64,000 nt of DNA from NCBI RefSeq assembly GCF_022808775.1, contig NZ_JAKZLA010000001.1, positions 496,001 to 560,000 of the forward strand. Direction: 5' to 3'. Shown piece by piece: positions 11,220-49,060 of this stretch (within the stretch, counting starts at the first letter, position 1; each line of letters begins with the position of its first letter). Position numbers and translations under genes: made by a program. The notes beneath the pieces were generated by a model. The model saw only the letters and a program-made list of their open reading frames with translations, had not been told where the DNA came from and ran no database searches. Origin of the DNA: Geothrix terrae. GTDB taxonomy: Bacteria > Acidobacteriota > Holophagae > Holophagales > Holophagaceae.

Positions 11220-11265
11220 GCAAGCCCGGCCCTTCTGCGCAGGCGCAAAAGGGCCGGGCTTGCCA
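11220..11265. terminator. 16-bp hairpin at the 3' end of the SRP RNA gene
   Basis: GGCAAGCCCGGCCCTT and AAGGGCCGGGCTTGCC form an uninterrupted 16-bp stem around a 14-base loop. On the minus strand it begins within the 3' strand of the SRP RNA, so it is the probable terminator, though no T-run follows the second arm. Confidence 0.5.
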
Positions 11266-11346
11266 CGGCACTCGGGGGAACGACTTAGGGCTGCTTCTTC
11301 CGACCTGACCCGGTTCATCGCACCCCGATGCATGGGGCCCGGCTTG
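11247..11346 (-). ncRNA. ffs: Signal recognition particle RNA (4.5S-type)
   Basis: On the minus strand the apical domain is clear: GGTCAGGTCGGAAGAAGCAG (Ffh-binding loop with GGAA tetraloop and conserved AGCAG). On its two sides GCGATG/GTCG, CGGGG/CCCCG, CCATG/CGTGG and GCCGGGC/GCCCGGC pair into one long rod, giving a molecule of about 100 nt of the short 4.5S type without an Alu domain. It works with Ffh and FtsY in co-translational targeting to the membrane. Ends are estimated from base pairing, plus or minus about 8 bases. Confidence 0.85.
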
Positions 11347-25881: not shown

Positions 25882-26307
25882 TCAGGGTCGGATGGTGGCG
25901 ATGGTGGCCTGCATGAGGGCGACCACCTTGGGGGCGGCGGCCCCGGAGAAGGCCCGGACCTCGCCCGTGCAGACCGTGAGGGAGCGGCCCGCGTTCTGGA
26001 CCCGCCCGATGGCCAGGAAGCGGTCGCCGAGGGCGGGCCGCAGCAGGTTGATCTTGAACTCGGCGGTGACGACCTCGCACCCCGGCGGCGCCTTCGTCAG
26101 GGCCGCGTACCCGCAGGCGCTGTCGAGGATGCTGGTGATGGCGCCCGCATGCATATACCCGTGCTGCTGCGACAGCCGCTCCGAGAAGGGCAGCGCGATG
26201 TGGACCTCCCCCTCTGACACCAGGGCCAGCTCCGCCCCGAGCGTCGTCATCAGACCCTGGGCCTGGAAGCTGGTGGTGATGCGGTCCTGGAGATTCGTCA
26301 TCGGCAT
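25882..26307 (-). CDS. PaaI-family hotdog thioesterase
   Basis: A 141-residue acyl-CoA thioesterase-like protein. The hotdog core has QQHGYMHAGAITSILDSACGYAA, with the usual His/Gly and Asp active-site arrangement, and TAEFKINLLRPALGD. The substrate cannot be told from sequence. The first in-frame ATG is used; the third codon is also ATG (26301). It borders the cassette-like region on its upstream side. Confidence 0.85.
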   Translation of the reverse strand: MPMTNLQDRITTSFQAQGLMTTLGAELALVSEGEVHIALPFSERLSQQHGYMHAGAITSILDSACGYAALTKAPPGCEVVTAEFKINLLRPALGDRFLAIGRVQNAGRSLTVCTGEVRAFSGAAAPKVVALMQATIATIRP

Positions 26308-26319
26308 GGGATCGGTCGC

Positions 26320-26361
26320 GAAGGCAATGCAGCCGGCTGTGAATGGAGCGAAGGGTTGGGC
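26320..26361 (-). repeat. Degenerate half attC-like site after the DUF2200 gene
   Basis: On the minus strand it begins GCCCAACCCTTCGCTCC, fitting the attC R'' core (RYYYAAC), and ends GCATTGCCTTC as in the two full sites nearby. It lies 38 bases after the DUF2200 stop, where a cassette site is expected. The second half (L'-R') is not found. Confidence 0.4.
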
Positions 26362-26399
26362 ATTGTGCTGATTGGGCCTGTCATGCGATCAGGTCAGGT

Positions 26400-26750
26400 C
26401 TACTGGCGCAAAATCTTGTCCATGGATCTGCCCTTTGCGAGCTCATCAATGAGCTTGTCGAGGTACCTGATCTTCTGAGTGATGGGGTCCTGGATGTCCT
26501 CGACGCGAATGCCACAAACGACACCCTTGATTTGAGAACTGTTTGGGTGAATCGCCGGGGCCTGGTCAAAGAAACGCTGGAAATCAATGTTGACCGCTGC
26601 GTGGTGGCTGAGCTGCTCGCGACTGTAGCCCGTCAACCAGCAGATGATGGTGTCCACCTCCTCCTTCGTCCGATTCTTGCGTTCGGCCTTCTGCACGTAC
26701 AGCGGATAGACCGTCGTGAAAAGCAGCTTTGAGATTTCGCGTGTGGACAT
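26400..26750 (-). CDS. DUF2200 family protein (cassette gene)
   Basis: A 116-residue cytosolic protein that closely follows the DUF2200 pattern: VYPLYVQKAERKNRTKEEVD, ICWLTGYS, VVCGIRVEDIQDP and IRYLDKLIDELAKGRSMDKIL. No biochemical role is known. Base composition is lower in GC than the chromosome around it. It lies between two attC-like sites, which suggests it arrived as an integron-type gene cassette. Confidence 0.88.
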   Translation of the reverse strand: MSTREISKLLFTTVYPLYVQKAERKNRTKEEVDTIICWLTGYSREQLSHHAAVNIDFQRFFDQAPAIHPNSSQIKGVVCGIRVEDIQDPITQKIRYLDKLIDELAKGRSMDKILRQ

Positions 26751-26783
26751 GGTGGCGTCTCTTGGCTCGATCGTTTCAGGGAT

Positions 26784-26907
26784 GCCTAGAGAATGAAGCA
26801 AACCGGCCCCGCCTGCACCGAGGCGATGAGCAGAACCGAGGAAGCGCGAAGCAGAGAGAGGGCAGAAGGCAATCCAGGCTGGGTCCGGGTTGAGCGGAGG
26901 GTTAGGC
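26784..26907 (-). repeat. attC-like cassette recombination site 1
   Basis: 124 bp. On the minus strand it opens with GCCTAAC (fits RYYYAAC) and closes with TCTAGGC (degenerate GTTRRRY). Inside, CTCCGCTCAACCCGGACC faces GGGGCCGGTTTGCTTCATTC, giving the imperfect arms typical of attC. The preceding gene's TAA stop lies inside GCCTAAC, as is common in integron cassettes. About 80% identical by eye to site 2. Confidence 0.7.
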
Positions 26908-27435
26908 CATGATTGACCCGTCTCCAAGTCTGGTGTGAAGCCATGTTGTTAGATGCTCAGGCACCGAGATATCCGTGGCTGCTTCATCTGAGGAGGGCCA
27001 TTCGAACGATTCGAAATGCTCAAGCAACTGGGGCATGGATAGTGTTGGACGCTGTCCACTCAGGCTTAGCGCTGTGTGGCGAGCCTGAAGTTCTTCTTTC
27101 GTCACTGAGAGCAGCAATAGGTATGGCTTCAAACCATTGGCTTGAGCCTCATTCCGGAATCGGTCGCGAAGCCACCTGAAGCAGAGCGTGTCATCAATGA
27201 TGATCGAGTGGCTCTTGGTGGCATGTTCGCGGATTCTGCCAAGCATCATTTCGAGCGTTTCAGCCCATACCGACTGAGGCAATCCTTCAGCACCGAAAGG
27301 CAAGCCTCGTTCATGGTTGATCTCATCAGCAGAAATCACGACTGCCTGAAGTTCCTGAGCAATTCGTGCGCAGGCCGTCGATTTTCCCGCCAACGATGGC
27401 CCGCAAAGAAGGTACATGCTTTTTGAGCGCTGCAT
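26902..27435 (-). CDS. P-loop kinase-like protein (cassette gene)
   Basis: A 177-residue single-domain ATPase/kinase. Walker A GPSLAGKST is at residues 12-20, an ISADEINHERG segment follows, and IIIDDT looks like Walker B. Size and layout resemble small AAA_33-type (zeta-toxin/polynucleotide-kinase-like) kinases; the substrate is unknown. The ATG is only 4 bases after attC-like site 2 and the stop is in site 1, so gene plus site form a compact cassette. No partner antitoxin frame is visible. Confidence 0.8.
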   Translation of the reverse strand: MQRSKSMYLLCGPSLAGKSTACARIAQELQAVVISADEINHERGLPFGAEGLPQSVWAETLEMMLGRIREHATKSHSIIIDDTLCFRWLRDRFRNEAQANGLKPYLLLLSVTKEELQARHTALSLSGQRPTLSMPQLLEHFESFEWPSSDEAATDISVPEHLTTWLHTRLGDGSIMA

Positions 27436-27439
27436 GAAC

Positions 27440-27564
27440 GGCCTAACGAATGAAGCAAACCGGCCCCGCCTGCACCGAGACGATGAGCGGAGCCGAGGAA
27501 GCGGGAAACAGAGAGAGAACGGAAGACAATGCAGGCGGGGTCCGAGTTGAACGGAGGGCTAGGC
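27440..27564 (-). repeat. attC-like cassette recombination site 2
   Basis: 125 bp. On the minus strand it runs from GCCTAGC (one mismatch to RYYYAAC) to a perfect GTTAGGC. Internal arms pair as in site 1 (GCAGGCGGGGCCGG against GGACCCCGCCTGC). It separates the NTF2-like gene from the kinase gene in the same orientation as site 1. Confidence 0.7.
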
Positions 27565-27584
27565 GCCGAAACTTAAACGCCCAC

Positions 27585-27959
27585 CTATACTTTTTTTGGA
27601 GTGCGTTGCGCCGGGTCATAGAAAAACGTCTCTCCAATAATCCGCTGCCCATCCCAATTCTGATAAGCAATTTCTTCCATCTCAGTCACGGTTCCATCCA
27701 GCCACTCGAAACGAAAGACCCAGCGAATGACGACGCAATCTCCGTTTACGAAAACTGGCCTGATGCATGTAGAAGTGACGTTGCCGGCTCTCGCCATAAG
27801 TGCGCGCTCTCTACTTACAAGCGCCTCACGTCCAATCCTTGGCTCGGACTGGTTCTCCTGGATGTAGCCGTCCTCGGTATAGAACTCTTCGAGTGCCTCT
27901 GCGTGAGCATTCGATTCGATCCGAGCAATGAATCTCTCTAGTGTTTCGGGTGTCGGCAT
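27585..27959 (-). CDS. NTF2/SnoaL-like protein (cassette gene)
   Basis: A 124-residue cone-shaped alpha+beta protein of the NTF2/SnoaL group: ERFIARIESNAHAEALEEFYTEDGYIQEN at the start, then IGREALVSRE, VVIRWVFRFEWLDGT and an end at ETFFYDP. Such proteins act as small isomerases, hydrolases or ligand binders; the activity is not predictable. It is upstream of attC-like site 2, and a GTTAGGC 33 bases before its ATG marks the probable cassette boundary. Confidence 0.8.
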   Translation of the reverse strand: MPTPETLERFIARIESNAHAEALEEFYTEDGYIQENQSEPRIGREALVSRERALMARAGNVTSTCIRPVFVNGDCVVIRWVFRFEWLDGTVTEMEEIAYQNWDGQRIIGETFFYDPAQRTPKKV

Positions 27960-28182
27960 TGTGGTGACCTATGGAAATGTGCGGGTTTGCAGCCTAACCA
28001 CCTTTAGACGGTGAGGAACGAAGAGAAATGTGATGGGATCACTCCCCCTCCACCGTTCCTCCTCGTCCATCAGCAGCTTGCTTGGTCTTTTCATGGTGCT
28101 TCGGTGTCTTCTCGGCATCAGCTGCGCTGATACGCGAGACATACAGATATCTAGTGGTGAATTCCATTTCAATGCGGACGGC
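27960..28182. other. Gap between cassette cluster and tricorn gene
   Basis: On the minus strand GTTAGGC (27998-27992) looks like the R' end of a further attC or attI, but no matching 5' half was found. GAGGAACG and CGTTCCTC pair across a GGGGGAGTGATCCC core at about 28020-28068, possibly the tricorn terminator. A 67-codon frame here has no ribosome site and I do not call it. Confidence 0.4.
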
Positions 28183-31100
28183 TTACCGCTTCGGATAAGC
28201 CGGCACGGCCGGGAAACCCGGCGTCGGGTTCTCCTTGAGCTGCTTCAGCAGGGTCTCGATGCCCACTTCGAGCTGGCGGTCATGGCCCTGCAGGAGGCTG
28301 GCGGGGTCGTTCTCCACGGTGAGGTCGGGGTCGGCGCCGTGGTTCTCCACCCACCACTTCCCTTCCCGGCCGTAGAAGCCGTTGTTGCTCTGCTCGACGC
28401 GGCCACCGTCCAGGGTGAACTGCGTGTTGATGATGCCCACCAGGCCCCCCCAGCTGGGCACGCCCACGATGGTGCCGAGGTTCCGCGCCTTCACGTGCAT
28501 GAGGAAGGCCTCGCCGTCGCTGCCATTCTGCTCGTTGGTGAGGAAGACGTAGCGGCCGTCGCTGGCGGTGCCGGGGTAGCGGAAGGGACCCATGCCGCGC
28601 AGCACGTTGAAGCCCACCTGCTTGCGCTCCAGCTTGTCGATCATGAAGAACTCGGTCCAGCCACCGCCGTTGCCGCGCACGTCCACCACGATGCCCTTCT
28701 TGTAGCGGAAGGCGCGCCAGTACTTGTCGAACTGGCCGATGTTCTGGTCGCCCATGGCCGTGAGGTGCATGTAGCCGAGCTGGCCATGGGAGGCCTTGTC
28801 CACGGCGGCGATGTTGTCGGCCACCCAGTGTTCGTAGCGCAGGGACCCGTCATTGGGGACGGGCTCGACCTCGATGGTGCGGGCGCCGTCCAGGGTGGGC
28901 TTCGCGTTCACCGTCAGCGTGACCTTCTGGCCCTTGATGACCTGGAGACGCGACTCGATGGCCTCGGGGGCCTTCAGGGGCTTGCCGTCGATGGCCAGCA
29001 GGTAGTCACCCTCCTTCACCTTGGGCGCGGGGTCGGCCAGCGGGGCCTTGAGGTCGCGGGCGTAGGCCGTGGGGCCATAGACCTTGGCGAAGCGGTAGGC
29101 GCCGTTCTCGGCCTTGAAATCGGCGCCGAGGAACCCCGGATAGACCGGGCTCGGAGCCAGCTTGGCCGGTCCCAGGTCGCCGCCGGACACATAGGTGTGG
29201 CTCACGCACAGCTCGCCCACCATCTGGCTCAGCAGCCAGTTCAGTTCCTGGCGGGAGTTCAGCTCGGGGAGCCAGGCGCGGTACTTGGCGCCGATGGCGG
29301 CCCAGTCGTTGCCGTTCATGTTCACGTCATAAAAGAAGTCCCGGTACCAGCGCCAGGTGTCCTCGAAGATCTGCTTCCACTCGGCCCGGGGGTCGGCGGT
29401 CATGATCATCCGTTCCAGGTCCAGCTTCTCGGGCAGGGCCTTGGAGGTGAACACGGCCGCGGCCTCGCCCACGTGGAAGTTGGGCCCCTTGCGGAGGAGC
29501 AGGCGCCTGCCCTCGGCATCGAAGGTCCAGTCGCTGATGGCGTCGGCCAGCACCACCTCCTTGTCCTTCTTGGCGGTGGCATCATAGAGGTGCAGCTTCC
29601 ACTTGTCGGCGCCGCGCGGCGCGTAGAACTCCTCGACCACGTTGTCGTCCCAGCCCTCGACCTCGTCCCAGCCCACGATGCCGCGACCCGCCTTGAGGTG
29701 GAAGAGGTTGCCGGATTTCACCGGCAGGGGGGCGATGCGGTCGGAGAGACCCGCCACATCAATGCGGAAGGCCGAGGCGGACGAGAGCGATGACGCGGCC
29801 GACGCCTTGTCCTCGCCGGCCTTCAGCTTCACCGCCATGACCTGCACGGGCGCGGACTGGATGTGGTTGTCCTGGCTGGGGTCGAGCCTTGTATGGAAGT
29901 TGCTGTAGCTCAGGAAGTAGAGGGTGCTGCCGTCCTGGTCGAAAGTGGGGTCCACGCAGTCGTAGAACCCGTCCGTGAGGGCCACCTTCTGCTTCGTGGA
30001 CAGATTGAAGAGGTGGATGCGGCCGTTGCGGCTGGGCTCCACCACCGAGTAGGCCACCCACTGGGAGTCCGGCGACCAGGTGTAGTCGCTCACCTCCCAG
30101 GTGAACTGGTCGTTCTTCAGGTCGTGGAACTCATCCACCTTGGTGAGCTTCTTCGTGGCCACGTCCATGACGTAGATGGCGAAGCTCTTGTCGCCGAAGA
30201 GGATCTTCGTGCCGTCGGGGCTCCACTCCAGGTGGTAGAAGGCGGTCTTGAGGCCCGTGGGAATGCGCTCCGCCGCGCCACCGTCCGCGGGCTGCACGTA
30301 GAGGTCGTAGTCGCCGCTGGCGTCGCTGAAATAGGCCACGCGCTTGCCATCCGGCGACAGGCGCGGGAAGCGCTCGCGCACGCCGGGTGTCTGCGTGAGG
30401 TTCTTCGCGGGCTTCGCCGCATCCGTGGGCAGGAGGAAGACCTCGCCCCGGGCCTCGAAGACGGCGGTCTGGCCCGTCAGGCTCATGGCCTGGATCCACT
30501 CCTTGGGGTTCACGGGATGGGGCGCCACCTTCCAGCTGTCGCTGGCGGTGGTGACGGGGACGGCATGGACGGCCTTCGTGGCCAGGTCGAGGGCGTGGAG
30601 ATGGCCACCCTGCACGAAGACGACCGTACGGCCGTCCGTGCTGGGCTGCTGCACATCGAAGTCCTTGAGGTCCGTGAGCTGCTCCACCGCCTTGGTGGCG
30701 GGATCCACGGCGTAGAGGTTGGTGATGCCGTTGGCGCCGCGGTCGGATTCGAAGAGCACCCTGCCGTTCGCCCAGATGGGGGCGCCGTTGCGGCCCACGT
30801 AGTCCGTCAGCTTCGTGAAGCCGCCGGTCTTCAGGTCCGCCAGCCAGAGGTCCTGGTGCAGGCCTCCCTTGTAGCGTTTCCAGTAGTACTCGACATGCCC
30901 CTTGGAGCTGTAGGCCAGGCGCTGGCCATCTGGCGACAGGGTGCCCTGGACGGCGCGCGGAACCGCGAGGGCCGCGGGTTCGTGGCCTTCCAGATCGACG
31001 GTGAAGAGCCGTTCGATGGGACGACGGTCGTACCCACCGAGGGCCTTGATCACCACCTGGAGGCTATCCGGCGTCCAGCCCTGGACGGAGGCGTACCCGC

Positions 31101-31410
31101 TCCAGGTGAGGCGCTTCGGCGTGCCGCCCTCGGCGGGCATGACATAGGCCTCGGTGGCCCCGTCGTACTGGGCGGTGAAGGCGATCCACTTGCCATCGGG
31201 GCTGAAGCGGGCCGCGGTCTCCAGACCGGGATGCGTCGTCAGGCGACGGGCCTCGCCGCCCTTGAGAGAACCCAGCCAGAGGTCGCTTTCCCAGGTGAAC
31301 ACCACGCGGTCGCCGTGCACATCCGGCGAGCTGACGAAGCGGGGGGCGCGTTCCTGGGCCACGAGGGCGCAGGCCACGAGAAGCACAGCGGAAGCACGGA
31401 AGCGCGGCAT
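28183..31410 (-). CDS. Tricorn-type S41 protease, exported
   Basis: A 1,075-residue peptidase: signal peptide (MPRFRASAVLLVACALVAQ), N-terminal beta-propellers made of repeated WSPDGTKI/FSPDGKWIAF-like blades (to about residue 680), a tricorn C1-like helical region, a PDZ domain (YLLAIDGKPLKAPEAIESRL, about 800-880) and a C-terminal S41 domain with VRGNGGG and the presumed nucleophile Ser in NGSDGEAF. It degrades peptides, probably in the periplasm given the signal. CCGGAGT before the ATG sets the start at 31410. About the usual tricorn length. Confidence 0.92.
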   Translation of the reverse strand: MPRFRASAVLLVACALVAQERAPRFVSSPDVHGDRVVFTWESDLWLGSLKGGEARRLTTHPGLETAARFSPDGKWIAFTAQYDGATEAYVMPAEGGTPKRLTWSGYASVQGWTPDSLQVVIKALGGYDRRPIERLFTVDLEGHEPAALAVPRAVQGTLSPDGQRLAYSSKGHVEYYWKRYKGGLHQDLWLADLKTGGFTKLTDYVGRNGAPIWANGRVLFESDRGANGITNLYAVDPATKAVEQLTDLKDFDVQQPSTDGRTVVFVQGGHLHALDLATKAVHAVPVTTASDSWKVAPHPVNPKEWIQAMSLTGQTAVFEARGEVFLLPTDAAKPAKNLTQTPGVRERFPRLSPDGKRVAYFSDASGDYDLYVQPADGGAAERIPTGLKTAFYHLEWSPDGTKILFGDKSFAIYVMDVATKKLTKVDEFHDLKNDQFTWEVSDYTWSPDSQWVAYSVVEPSRNGRIHLFNLSTKQKVALTDGFYDCVDPTFDQDGSTLYFLSYSNFHTRLDPSQDNHIQSAPVQVMAVKLKAGEDKASAASSLSSASAFRIDVAGLSDRIAPLPVKSGNLFHLKAGRGIVGWDEVEGWDDNVVEEFYAPRGADKWKLHLYDATAKKDKEVVLADAISDWTFDAEGRRLLLRKGPNFHVGEAAAVFTSKALPEKLDLERMIMTADPRAEWKQIFEDTWRWYRDFFYDVNMNGNDWAAIGAKYRAWLPELNSRQELNWLLSQMVGELCVSHTYVSGGDLGPAKLAPSPVYPGFLGADFKAENGAYRFAKVYGPTAYARDLKAPLADPAPKVKEGDYLLAIDGKPLKAPEAIESRLQVIKGQKVTLTVNAKPTLDGARTIEVEPVPNDGSLRYEHWVADNIAAVDKASHGQLGYMHLTAMGDQNIGQFDKYWRAFRYKKGIVVDVRGNGGGWTEFFMIDKLERKQVGFNVLRGMGPFRYPGTASDGRYVFLTNEQNGSDGEAFLMHVKARNLGTIVGVPSWGGLVGIINTQFTLDGGRVEQSNNGFYGREGKWWVENHGADPDLTVENDPASLLQGHDRQLEVGIETLLKQLKENPTPGFPAVPAYPKR

Positions 31411-31435
31411 CAAAGACTCCGGTGAGGGGTGGACC

Positions 31436-43774: not shown

Positions 43775-44608
43775 ATGCTGCTCCAATCCCCCCCGGCCCA
43801 GATCCAGACCCTGGCCATCCTCCCGCAGCTTCCGCCCGTCCCCGACGCTCTCGTCAAGGCGAAGGACTGGGCCGGCCTGGCCGATTGGTTCGAAACCGTC
43901 GCGCCCGCCACCCGCGGCGCCTACTATGAGTGGTGGCTGCTGGGCCTCAAACGGAGCCAGCGCTGGGATCGTCTCCTGACGGTTTGCGAGGCACTGCAAC
44001 CCCAGGTTGAAGCCAAGACCGGCCCCCGCCTCGCCTCGTACCGGGTCTACCGGGCCCAAGCCCTGGGCCAGCTGGGGCGGCACGCCGAGGCGGCCCGGGC
44101 CCAGGCCGAGAATGGCCGGCTTGGCGACCTCGACGGCCTCTCCAATGCGTGCGTGGAGGCCCGGATGGCCGAGGACTGGGCGGCCCTCCTGACCTACGCC
44201 GACGAGCTGCGCGCCAAGAATCCGGAGGACGCCAACGGCCTGGCCTGGAAAGGCGAAGCCCTGGCCCGCATGAACCGCTTCACCGACGCCGAGCCCATCC
44301 TCAGGGAAGCGCTGGCGAAGAATCCAAAGATCGCCTATGCCTGGAACAACCTCGGCCGCTGCCTGAACGAGCGGAAGGCCTGGGCCGAGGCTGCCGAGTC
44401 GCTGGACCGCGCCCTCACTCTGGAACCGAACCAGCTCGAGGCTCTGTTCAACCGGGGTCGAGCCCGGTTCGAGCTGAAGCGCTACCAGGAGAGCCGTGAC
44501 GACTTCCGCGCGGCCCTGGCCCTTCAACCTGACAATCTCGTGCTTGCCGAGAACCTCCGCCAGGCCGAGCGCTACGCCGCCCTCCCCGCGCCGAAGAAAC
44601 GGCGCTGA
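43775..44608 (+). CDS. Tetratricopeptide-repeat protein
   Basis: A 277-residue cytosolic protein built of TPR helix pairs. The C-terminal repeats are clear: NGLAWKGEALARMNRFTDAE, IAYAWNNLGRCLNERKAWAEA and LEALFNRGRARFELKRYQES. The earlier part (to about 120) is helical and more diverged. No signal or enzymatic domain. Likely a protein-interaction adaptor; partner unknown. Convergent with the Cache-HAMP receptor gene (22-bp gap). Confidence 0.82.
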   Translation: MLLQSPPAQIQTLAILPQLPPVPDALVKAKDWAGLADWFETVAPATRGAYYEWWLLGLKRSQRWDRLLTVCEALQPQVEAKTGPRLASYRVYRAQALGQLGRHAEAARAQAENGRLGDLDGLSNACVEARMAEDWAALLTYADELRAKNPEDANGLAWKGEALARMNRFTDAEPILREALAKNPKIAYAWNNLGRCLNERKAWAEAAESLDRALTLEPNQLEALFNRGRARFELKRYQESRDDFRAALALQPDNLVLAENLRQAERYAALPAPKKRR

Positions 44609-47402: not shown

Positions 47403-48050
47403 ATGTCCGACGCCCTCCTCATCGACCTCCTCGACGGCTGCCACCGGCTCCATGCGGGCGGTCTTCTGGCGGCCTCGGACGGCAACCTCTCGGTGCGCCT
47501 GCCCAACGGCCTCATCGCCATGACGCCCAGCGGCGTCCCCAAGGCCAAGGTGCGAATGGAGGATCTGGCACACCTCACTCTGGCCGGCGAGGTCCTCTCC
47601 GGCCGTCCCAGCAGCGAGCGGGCCATGCACCTGGCCATCTACCGGGCGGTACCGGAAGCGAAGGCCGTAGTCCACGCCCACCCGCCCACGGCCATCGCCT
47701 GGACCCTGGCCCGGCCTGACCTGGCGGAGCTGCCCTCGGACGGCCTGCCCGAGGTGATCCTCGCCGCGGGCCGCATCCCCGTCGTGCCCATGGCCATTCC
47801 CGGCACCGAGGCCATGGGGACGAACCTCCTGCCGTTCCTGCCCGGACACCGACTCATGCTCCTGGCCCGTCACGGCGGCCTCTGCTGGGGCGAGCACCTG
47901 GACGAGGCCGTGGGCGGCCTCGAGCGCCTGGAGCAGGTGGCCCAGATCCTGTGGAAGGCCGAGGCCCTGGGCGGCGCCAAGCCGCTGGCTCACTCCGAAC
48001 TCGAAGAGCTTCGGGCCCTGCGCGCAAAGATCGGACCGAGGATCATCTGA
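47403..48050 (+). CDS. Class II aldolase, probable sugar-1-phosphate aldolase of salvage pathway
   Basis: A 215-residue class II aldolase/adducin-family enzyme: GGLLAASDGNLSVRLPNGLIAMTPSG near the start, the metal-ligand pair VVHAHPPTAIA and a third His in LLARHGGLCWG. It overlaps mtnA by one base (TGATG). Next to mtnA, such an aldolase is expected to split 5-methylthioribulose-1-phosphate or 5-deoxyribulose-1-phosphate to DHAP and an aldehyde (the 'DHAP shunt'), instead of MtnB dehydratase chemistry. That assignment rests on context; MtnB belongs to the same superfamily. Confidence 0.85.
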   Translation: MSDALLIDLLDGCHRLHAGGLLAASDGNLSVRLPNGLIAMTPSGVPKAKVRMEDLAHLTLAGEVLSGRPSSERAMHLAIYRAVPEAKAVVHAHPPTAIAWTLARPDLAELPSDGLPEVILAAGRIPVVPMAIPGTEAMGTNLLPFLPGHRLMLLARHGGLCWGEHLDEAVGGLERLEQVAQILWKAEALGGAKPLAHSELEELRALRAKIGPRII

Positions 48051-49060
48051 TGAACGCCTTCGAATCTCTGGGCCTGAAACACGATGGCCACGCCCTCTGG
48101 GTGCTGGATCAGACGCAGCTTCCGGACGCGGAGGTGTGGCTGGACGGCAGCGATCCGGCGGTCATGGTGGGTCTCATCAAGCGGCTGGCCGTGCGCGGGG
48201 CGCCGCTCATCGGCGTGGCGGCGGCGGCGAGCCTGGCCACCTTCGCCCAGCAGGGCGCCTCCGCTTCCGAGTACGCGACCGCTTGCGCGGCCTTGCGCGC
48301 GGCCCGGCCCACAGCCGTGAACCTCATGTGGGCCATGGACCGCATGAAGGGCGCCGCCGATCCCCTCACCGAGGCCCAGGCCATCTTCGAGGAGGATGTA
48401 CGACTCTGCGAAGGCATGGCCCAGCACGGCGCGGTGCTCATCCAGGACGGCGAAGGAATCCTCACCCACTGCAACACCGGCGGCCTCGCTACCGCGGGCA
48501 TCGGCACGGCCCTGGGCGTCATCCGGCGGGCGCACGAGCAGGGCAAGCGCATCCACGTGTATGCGGACGAGACACGGCCCCTGCTGCAGGGCGGCCGTCT
48601 CACGGCCTGGGAGCTGCGCAAGCTGGGCATCCCCTCGACGCTCATCACCGACAGCATGGCGGCCCTGCTCCTGCGTGACGGCAAGGTGCAGCGTGTGCTG
48701 GTGGGCTCGGACCGCGTGGCCGCCAACGGCGACTTCGCCAACAAGGTGGGCACCTATGGCGTGGCCGTGCAGGCACGGCACCACGGCGTGCCCTTCCATC
48801 CCGTGGCCCCTTCCAGCACGGTGGACCTCGCCTGCCCCAACGGCACCGCCATCCCCATCGAGCTTCGGGATGAGGCCGAGGTGCGCGGCTATGGGGCCTG
48901 GCGCTGGGCGCCGGAAGGCATGCCCGCCTGGAACCCCAGCTTCGACGTCACCCCCGTGGACCTCGTCACCAGCCTCGTTCTCGACCGCGGCGTGTATCCC
49001 CGCGCCGAACTCCAACGCGGCGTGCTTTCTGAAGCTCTGGGGAAGAAAAGAATCAGATAA
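48050..49060 (+). CDS. mtnA: S-methyl-5-thioribose-1-phosphate isomerase
   Basis: Isomerises methylthioribose-1-phosphate (or 5-deoxyribose-1-phosphate) to the ribulose form in salvage of methylthioadenosine and 5'-deoxyadenosine. The 336-residue protein has IKRLAVRGAPLIGVAAA, the active Cys region ILTHCNTGGLATAG, VYADETRPLLQGGRLTAWEL and VGSDRVAANGDFANKVGTY. The stop codon TAA is at the edge of a long palindrome. The radical SAM and B12 enzymes in the window could be one source of 5'-deoxyadenosine. Confidence 0.95.
   Translation: MNAFESLGLKHDGHALWVLDQTQLPDAEVWLDGSDPAVMVGLIKRLAVRGAPLIGVAAAASLATFAQQGASASEYATACAALRAARPTAVNLMWAMDRMKGAADPLTEAQAIFEEDVRLCEGMAQHGAVLIQDGEGILTHCNTGGLATAGIGTALGVIRRAHEQGKRIHVYADETRPLLQGGRLTAWELRKLGIPSTLITDSMAALLLRDGKVQRVLVGSDRVAANGDFANKVGTYGVAVQARHHGVPFHPVAPSSTVDLACPNGTAIPIELRDEAEVRGYGAWRWAPEGMPAWNPSFDVTPVDLVTSLVLDRGVYPRAELQRGVLSEALGKKRIR

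Follow-up and report, generated by a model that had tools for sequence, protein, structure and literature searches.

The integrase-less cassette cluster of Geothrix terrae described here is probably, at a probability of about 0.78, an array at a conserved satellite platform of a multi-platform chromosomal integron that is loaded in trans by a distant integron integrase (IntI). The cluster lies in the stretch of DNA that we analysed, called the window below (64,000 nt; assembly GCF_022808775.1, contig NZ_JAKZLA010000001.1, positions 496,001-560,000). We propose that a single IntI, encoded next to the main attI on another contig, would act in trans and place cassettes at an attI-like core that lies between a tricorn-protease gene and a thioesterase gene. 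New cassettes would enter at the head, which would explain why the head gene varies in almost every species, and the tail, a DUF2200 gene behind a degenerate attC, would be frozen. From the comparison of sequences we infer that IntI is the enzyme acting at the window site and that it is still acting there.

Results

A cassette array between two host genes

The cluster lies on the minus strand, as do all window features below unless marked otherwise. It is flanked upstream by a gene for a tricorn-type protease (28183..31413; Pfam PD40, Tricorn_C1, PDZ_Tricorn and Peptidase_S41), whose product is 95-96% identical to the corresponding protein in four Geothrix genomes, and downstream by a thioesterase gene (25882..26307; 4HBT, 52.3 bits). 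Between them we found three cassettes. The head cassette encodes a SnoaL-like protein of 124 aa (27585..27959; SnoaL_2, 30.7 bits, cut-off 27), the second a P-loop kinase-like protein of 177 aa (26902..27435; AAA_33, 60.9 bits) and the third, the tail gene, a DUF2200 protein of 116 aa (26400..26750; DUF2200, 169.8 bits). An earlier note on this DNA, made from the letters alone, had named three minus-strand genes as NTF2-like, P-loop kinase and DUF2200, and the Pfam matches bear this out, SnoaL_2 having the NTF2-like fold. Relatives of the P-loop cassette were present in 2 of 47 genomes, the window's own and one at 50% identity. When nine proteins were submitted to PADLOC, none of the three window genes matched and two head cassettes of relatives did. 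The GC content of the array, which had been noted as low, is 0.546 vs 0.705 and 0.686 in the flanks. A bacterial small SRP RNA at window 11249-11344 (-), with 65.6 bits, was the sole Rfam match.

The first two cassettes are each followed by a full attC site of 124 bp (attC 1, 27441..27564; attC 2, 26784..26907), with ends GCCTAGC/GTTAGGC and GCCTAAC/TCTAGGC, respectively, just as the earlier note had read them (124-125 bp). These follow the inverted attC consensus, RYYYAAC for the R'' box and GTTRRRY for the R' box, with a deviation at one end of each site, which in attC 2 is the degenerate R' box (TCTAGGC). The attC sites of the same genome usually end GCCTAAC...GTTAGGC. The degenerate half site predicted after DUF2200 was also found (26319..26361); from the sequence and the comparison with relatives we read it as an R'' box GCCCAAC (26355-26361) with part of an arm. 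Related half sites occur at two other loci, L061 and L170, and L059/L165 shows a short match to it. The kinase stop codon, TAA, does lie inside the attC core, in the R'' box, as had been claimed, but the start codon of this gene, ATG, is 5 bases past GTTAGGC rather than 4. The lone GTTAGGC at the upstream edge is present (27992..27998), and the relatives' comparison assigns its G to the chromosome side and its TTAGGC to the cassette side.

An attC covariance model, R1, was built from 49 sites, both window sites among them. As the earlier note had suggested, we scored the window with such a model and obtained 139.3 bits for attC 1 and 124.7 bits for attC 2, scores that are not independent because both sites were in the building set. 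A blastn search of the window's own genome with attC 1 gave 82 candidates, the best 40 of which were 86-100% identical, and R1 found at least 81 sites there at E ≤ 0.01 with the best 150 of 2149 candidates scored, or about 80. Since 150 candidates were scored per genome in all R1 genome searches, the attC counts per genome are lower bounds. The common fold of these sites has 27 pairs, with 91.7% of cells paired vs 23-46% in slid controls, and 7 of the 27 pairs change on both sides. The bottom strand of attC 1 folded better than 200 of 200 shuffles (z -3.3) and left unpaired bases within the stem, and four other attC sites folded at z -2.8 to -4.1, again with extrahelical bases in the stem. The folding expected in the note was thus seen for site 1 but not for site 2, whose fold was no better than shuffles (z +0.81; 156 of 200 equally good), with the outer stem still in the centroid. 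Given its likeness to the other attC sites of the genome and the covarying common fold, the window cluster is more than chance.

With two attC sites and no integron integrase nearby, the locus is a cluster of attC sites lacking an integrase (CALIN), and the earlier label of a CALIN in an acidobacterial chromosome fits as a description. No match to the integron integrase family TIGR02249 was found in the 64-kb window, which agrees with that account, and tblastn (E ≤ 1) over -4/+3 kb around the window head revealed no remnant of intI. A complete chromosomal integron, with intI next to attI and an array, is absent at the window locus and present on contig C9 of the same genome.

A conserved locus with a variable head

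Our genus sample consisted of 47 genomes including the window's own, each counted once. The window locus was inspected in 14 genomes (the window, L057-L063, L163, L164 and L170-L173). At least one attC-like site was present in 10 of the 14, G023 holding a degenerate one alone (E 0.0022), and the remaining four had no cassette. Among 34 tricorn loci, blastn detected attC at 6; the remaining loci are for the most part more distant, with no thioesterase gene beside them. Mean pairwise identity in the 10 genomes was 0.76 over the 100 bp upstream of the crossover (27998..28097) vs 0.19 over the 100 bp after TTAGGC, so that the flank is kept up to an attI-like core, CGTCTAAAGGTGG (27998..28010), and is unrelated beyond it. 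We infer that the crossover lies after the last G of this core, between 27998 and 27997. No exact empty window site was found in the genomes inspected.

Head cassettes at this locus encode nine unrelated proteins in the 10 genomes, and the only head protein common to two genomes is that of G. oryzisoli and G033 (86%). Their Pfam matches over the cut-off were HEPN_LA2681, HSDR_N_2 and HNH in relatives and SnoaL_2 in the window. Read by eye, the second and third cassettes are common to G. campi and G. oryzisoli. The sister-genome search proposed in the earlier note therefore returned the same locus with other cargo, and the invariant gene order that it had named as evidence against its interpretation was not what we saw. 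Six of the 10 cassette-bearing genomes retain the DUF2200 tail; five of these six have a degenerate R' box ahead of it, and G018 has GTTAGGC there. The far end of the window array looks frozen. Entry of cassettes at the head would be expected to give just this combination of a variable head and a conserved tail.

The spacer of the window core is one base below that of the commonest attI, as in the main attI of G. rubra, and the core lacks the extended module described below. In an ungapped comparison, 9 of its 13 positions agree in at least 8 of the 10 genomes. Its L box, CGTCTAA, is conserved and stands at attI-like spacing; it has diverged from attI, and intI is not adjacent. Conservation is higher in the L-box columns than in the five bases directly before them. 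The core is further diverged in G001 and G023. As read from this comparison, the window core is weaker than the other attI-like cores. We also considered the flank as a dispersed repeat and rejected this: its eight other matches in the own genome are short (18-45 bp, 79-95% identity), and none extends over the landing core.

attI-like cores at array heads

We compared 11 intI-linked heads and found the core CGTCCAATTCAAAG in seven and a close variant in four. Proceeding from arrays to their heads, and with the window locus excluded, 20 of 24 intI-less heads had the core (8/8, 7/9 and 5/7 by set), a count that leans towards the core because most listings showed L-box-like candidates alone; this prefilter applied to the 7/9 and 5/7 sets. 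The four heads lacking the core are those at 3180 kb in G023 and 1005 kb in G033 and a pair from G046; an attC-like sequence is still present upstream of one of the G046 heads.

The reverse approach, from pattern to array, overlaps this set and is the cleaner test. The pattern CGYCYAATNYAAAGTT gave 32 matches in 17 genomes, four of which (G034, G036, G046 and G048) had none, and the reversed control gave 0. In the window's genome it marked exactly four heads, A, B, E and F, and left the window core unmatched. In 27 of the 30 matches with loci, an attC lies downstream on the same strand, no more than 1.5 kb away; two of the others were cut by a contig end and one was without attC. An intI stood beside 9 of the 30, and attC was near 19 of the 21 without it. 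No intI remnant was detected at 28 intI-less head sequences (tblastn, E ≤ 1), which comprised 15 heads, the window and 12 further loci with at least one repeat among them. An upstream module of more than 100 bp is common to some heads, and others share the core alone.

Several satellite heads carry CCCACGG...TCAACACTTAC about 80 bp before the core, perhaps a promoter, which is absent from the main attI. At the window locus of G018 (L170), the second cassette has CGTCCAATTCAAAG inside its gene, followed by GGTA, not TT. In G030, the main attI reads ATTACTAG and three satellites read the same, with two others that do not; such tracking of a genome's own main attI spelling was not seen in G. rubra or G. 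fermentans, and we did not use it as an argument.

One integrase and several arrays

The genome of the window contains one TIGR02249 match over the cut-off (462.6 bits), on contig C9 and 410 bp from the contig end, and the main attI core beside this intI reads CGTCCAATTCAAAG^TTAGGG. The genome has at least five array heads, with intI beside one of them (C9). The intI-less heads are on C13 (B), on C14 (E), on C1 near 29.6 kb (F) and in the window.

Assemblies break at attC repeats, so we also examined relatives with long contigs. In the single contig of G023, which has one intI, at least 36 attC sites lie by intI and at least 35 in an array about 1 Mb off, and smaller sets of 1-3 sites occur at each of four more places, in addition to the degenerate one at the window locus. 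In G033, with two contigs and one intI, there are at least 22 attC sites by intI, at least 22 and 30 in two other large arrays and at least 5 in a small one. G030 (single contig, one intI) likewise has several further arrays. At E ≤ 1e-60, intI was present in 30 of the 47 genus genomes, three of which had two copies.

The single-contig genome G048 has a truncated intI (G048:C1:774509-775153; 252 bits, below the cut-off) and at least 11 attC sites, mostly isolated; this one case is a possible natural intI knock-out. A second integrase lineage, 66-70% identical to the intI of the window's genome, occurs in G027, G034 and G046 (L229, L228 and L226). The attI beside it, read in G034 and G027, ends GCAGAATCC[CA]TAG^TTAGGC. 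We considered this lineage as the origin of the satellite attI and rejected it, its attI in these two genomes being unlike the satellite cores.

Other platforms and cassette exchange

Three further platforms can be recognised as orthologous from the genes upstream of them and have unrelated heads: P1 in four genomes, P2 in three and P3 in two. Upstream similarity reaches the crossover in P2, P3 and one P1 pair and stops about 145-255 bp short of it in the other P1 pairs; in the first 230 bp past the crossover we found nothing in common at any of the three. The gene upstream of P2 had 29 matches in 21 of the 47 genomes, paralogs included, and attC followed 3 of the 29. Window 44144-44599 (+) is the ortholog of the gene preceding P2 in G007, G023 and G033, and no attC follows this window copy. 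The G023 flank past its P2 array matches window 47415-48282. P2 and the window locus are within about 20 kb of each other.

Among 234 cassettes from three genomes there were 15 similar within-genome pairs, 8 of them between different arrays or contigs; one of these 8 joins contig pieces and may belong to a single array. In G033, a block of 534 bp running from GTTAGGC to GTTAGGC occurs with 0 mismatches in two intI-less arrays with different neighbours. The intI array of G023 shares two identical cassette bodies, of 218 and 395 bp, with an intI-less array. The window array has no near-identical cassette in the other arrays of its own genome, and the case for activity at the window site therefore rests on comparison between species.

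Behind the main attI of G. paludis there are 213 bp and then a second attI-like core (L105:2571-2783, G001:C2). Aligned with the P2 head of G007, this segment matches over 211 bp at 77.7%, the similarity starting at the TTAGGC boundary. It has the look of a cassette carrying attI and may be a route by which attI spreads, with a presumed direction and mechanism. The main array and a satellite array of G. rubra (L115 and L116) and a contig-edge head, G016:C9 (L196), have the same sequence past the crossover.

Discussion

The earlier note had left two origins for the array, capture from elsewhere or a relic. This is now the poorer reading, since there is an intact intI on another contig, the insertion point is conserved and the head varies by species. 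If the locus had begun as a complete integron whose intI was later lost, so that attI and a decaying array stayed behind, it would be an instance of the degraded integrons that CALINs are proposed to be in the accessible text of PMC9024848. The tail attC, degenerate in five of the six DUF2200 genomes, and the degenerate attC that is all G023 keeps here would suit such a history. We regard it as quite improbable, given that no intI remnant lies within -4/+3 kb, that intI is at the window locus in none of the 10 genomes and that the intI of the main heads compared adjoins shared neighbours elsewhere. Heads have moreover been replaced in nearly every species, and intI-less arrays elsewhere in the genus match the intI array in size. 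A chance event is a different matter: IntI might have put one cassette at an attG-type GTT site long ago, with later entry by attC x attC recombination and the core not guiding it. Such insertion is known for other integrons, and the window core is diverged and without the extended module. However, head junctions fall at the same base in 10 genomes, the L-box columns are better conserved than the five preceding bases, and near-perfect attI cores stand at other intI-less heads, so that we think this origin unlikely.

Cassettes could also have moved between arrays without IntI, by homologous recombination at the attC repeats or because array segments were duplicated. The attC copies within the own genome are mostly 86-90% alike (best 40 of 82); the common start of the main and a satellite array in G. 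rubra points the same way. However, shared cassettes are single units whose neighbours differ, and the G033 pair is bounded by GTTAGGC with differing left arms. At the window and three other loci, upstream similarity stops at or before the crossover with nothing common past it, and we consider this explanation very improbable. That one big array, broken into contigs, merely mimics several has a negligible chance of being true. Several array pieces of the own genome do end at contig edges, but the window array lies in the interior of a 671-kb contig, and the same spread of arrays in single-contig G023, G030 and G046 rules the artefact out. An array loaded in trans at a satellite platform thus remains our preferred account.

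Sedentary chromosomal integrons of the Vibrio type consist of intI, one attI and one large array of similar attC sites. Geothrix resembles them in having intI, attI and a large array, and differs in that one intI goes with several attI-headed arrays. Loot et al. 2024 reportedly described attG sites, at which cassettes enter the chromosome away from attI at G^TT, and attG insertion is established for other integrons. It is cited in PMC12444791 and PMC12901181, and the accessible text of the latter describes attG as clearly diverged from classical att sites. As far as these texts go, the Geothrix heads share with attG the chromosomal entry away from attI and differ in being attI-like and reused over species. 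The Delta-attI gene cassettes of mobile integrons, in which part of attI travels on a cassette (PMC12901181, same portion), recall the module in the main array of G. paludis. By that source, Delta-attI is a partial attI1 of resistance integrons and was assayed, whereas the Geothrix module is longer, heads satellite arrays and is a candidate for such movement.

As far as the accessible text of PMC12444791 goes, the nearest precedent is that of Xanthomonas CALINs at conserved secondary loci. These too are intI-less attC clusters off the main integron, at positions common to species. Unlike in Geothrix, that text shows no attI-like heads and no feeding by a single integrase, and many of the intI are inactive; most Geothrix heads have an attI core, and their arrays can equal the main one in size. 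Off-target insertion, loss of intI and rearrangement are the origins proposed for CALINs in the available part of PMC8618304, and that of PMC10127599 treats off-target and attI-like reactions of IntI1. Among the titles searched, which left out most subscription papers, none dealt with a single integrase serving several attI platforms, and the one paper naming both Geothrix and integron is, by its abstract, about sewage.

We tentatively suggest, at somewhat less than even odds, that Geothrix has a distributed integron, in which one integrase would stock several attI-type platforms from a common pool and the attI module would spread on a cassette. How integrase-less arrays arise is an open question, and it is directly testable in Geothrix because the genus includes genomes assembled into one contig that have one intI as well as several satellite platforms orthologous between species. 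If our account holds, arrays now classed as degraded integrons may be functional platforms. They would go unrecognised as such, since no search is made for attI sites outside class 1, as stated in the accessible text of PMC9024848. Our account suggests how integron arrays without an enzyme of their own can arise and persist.
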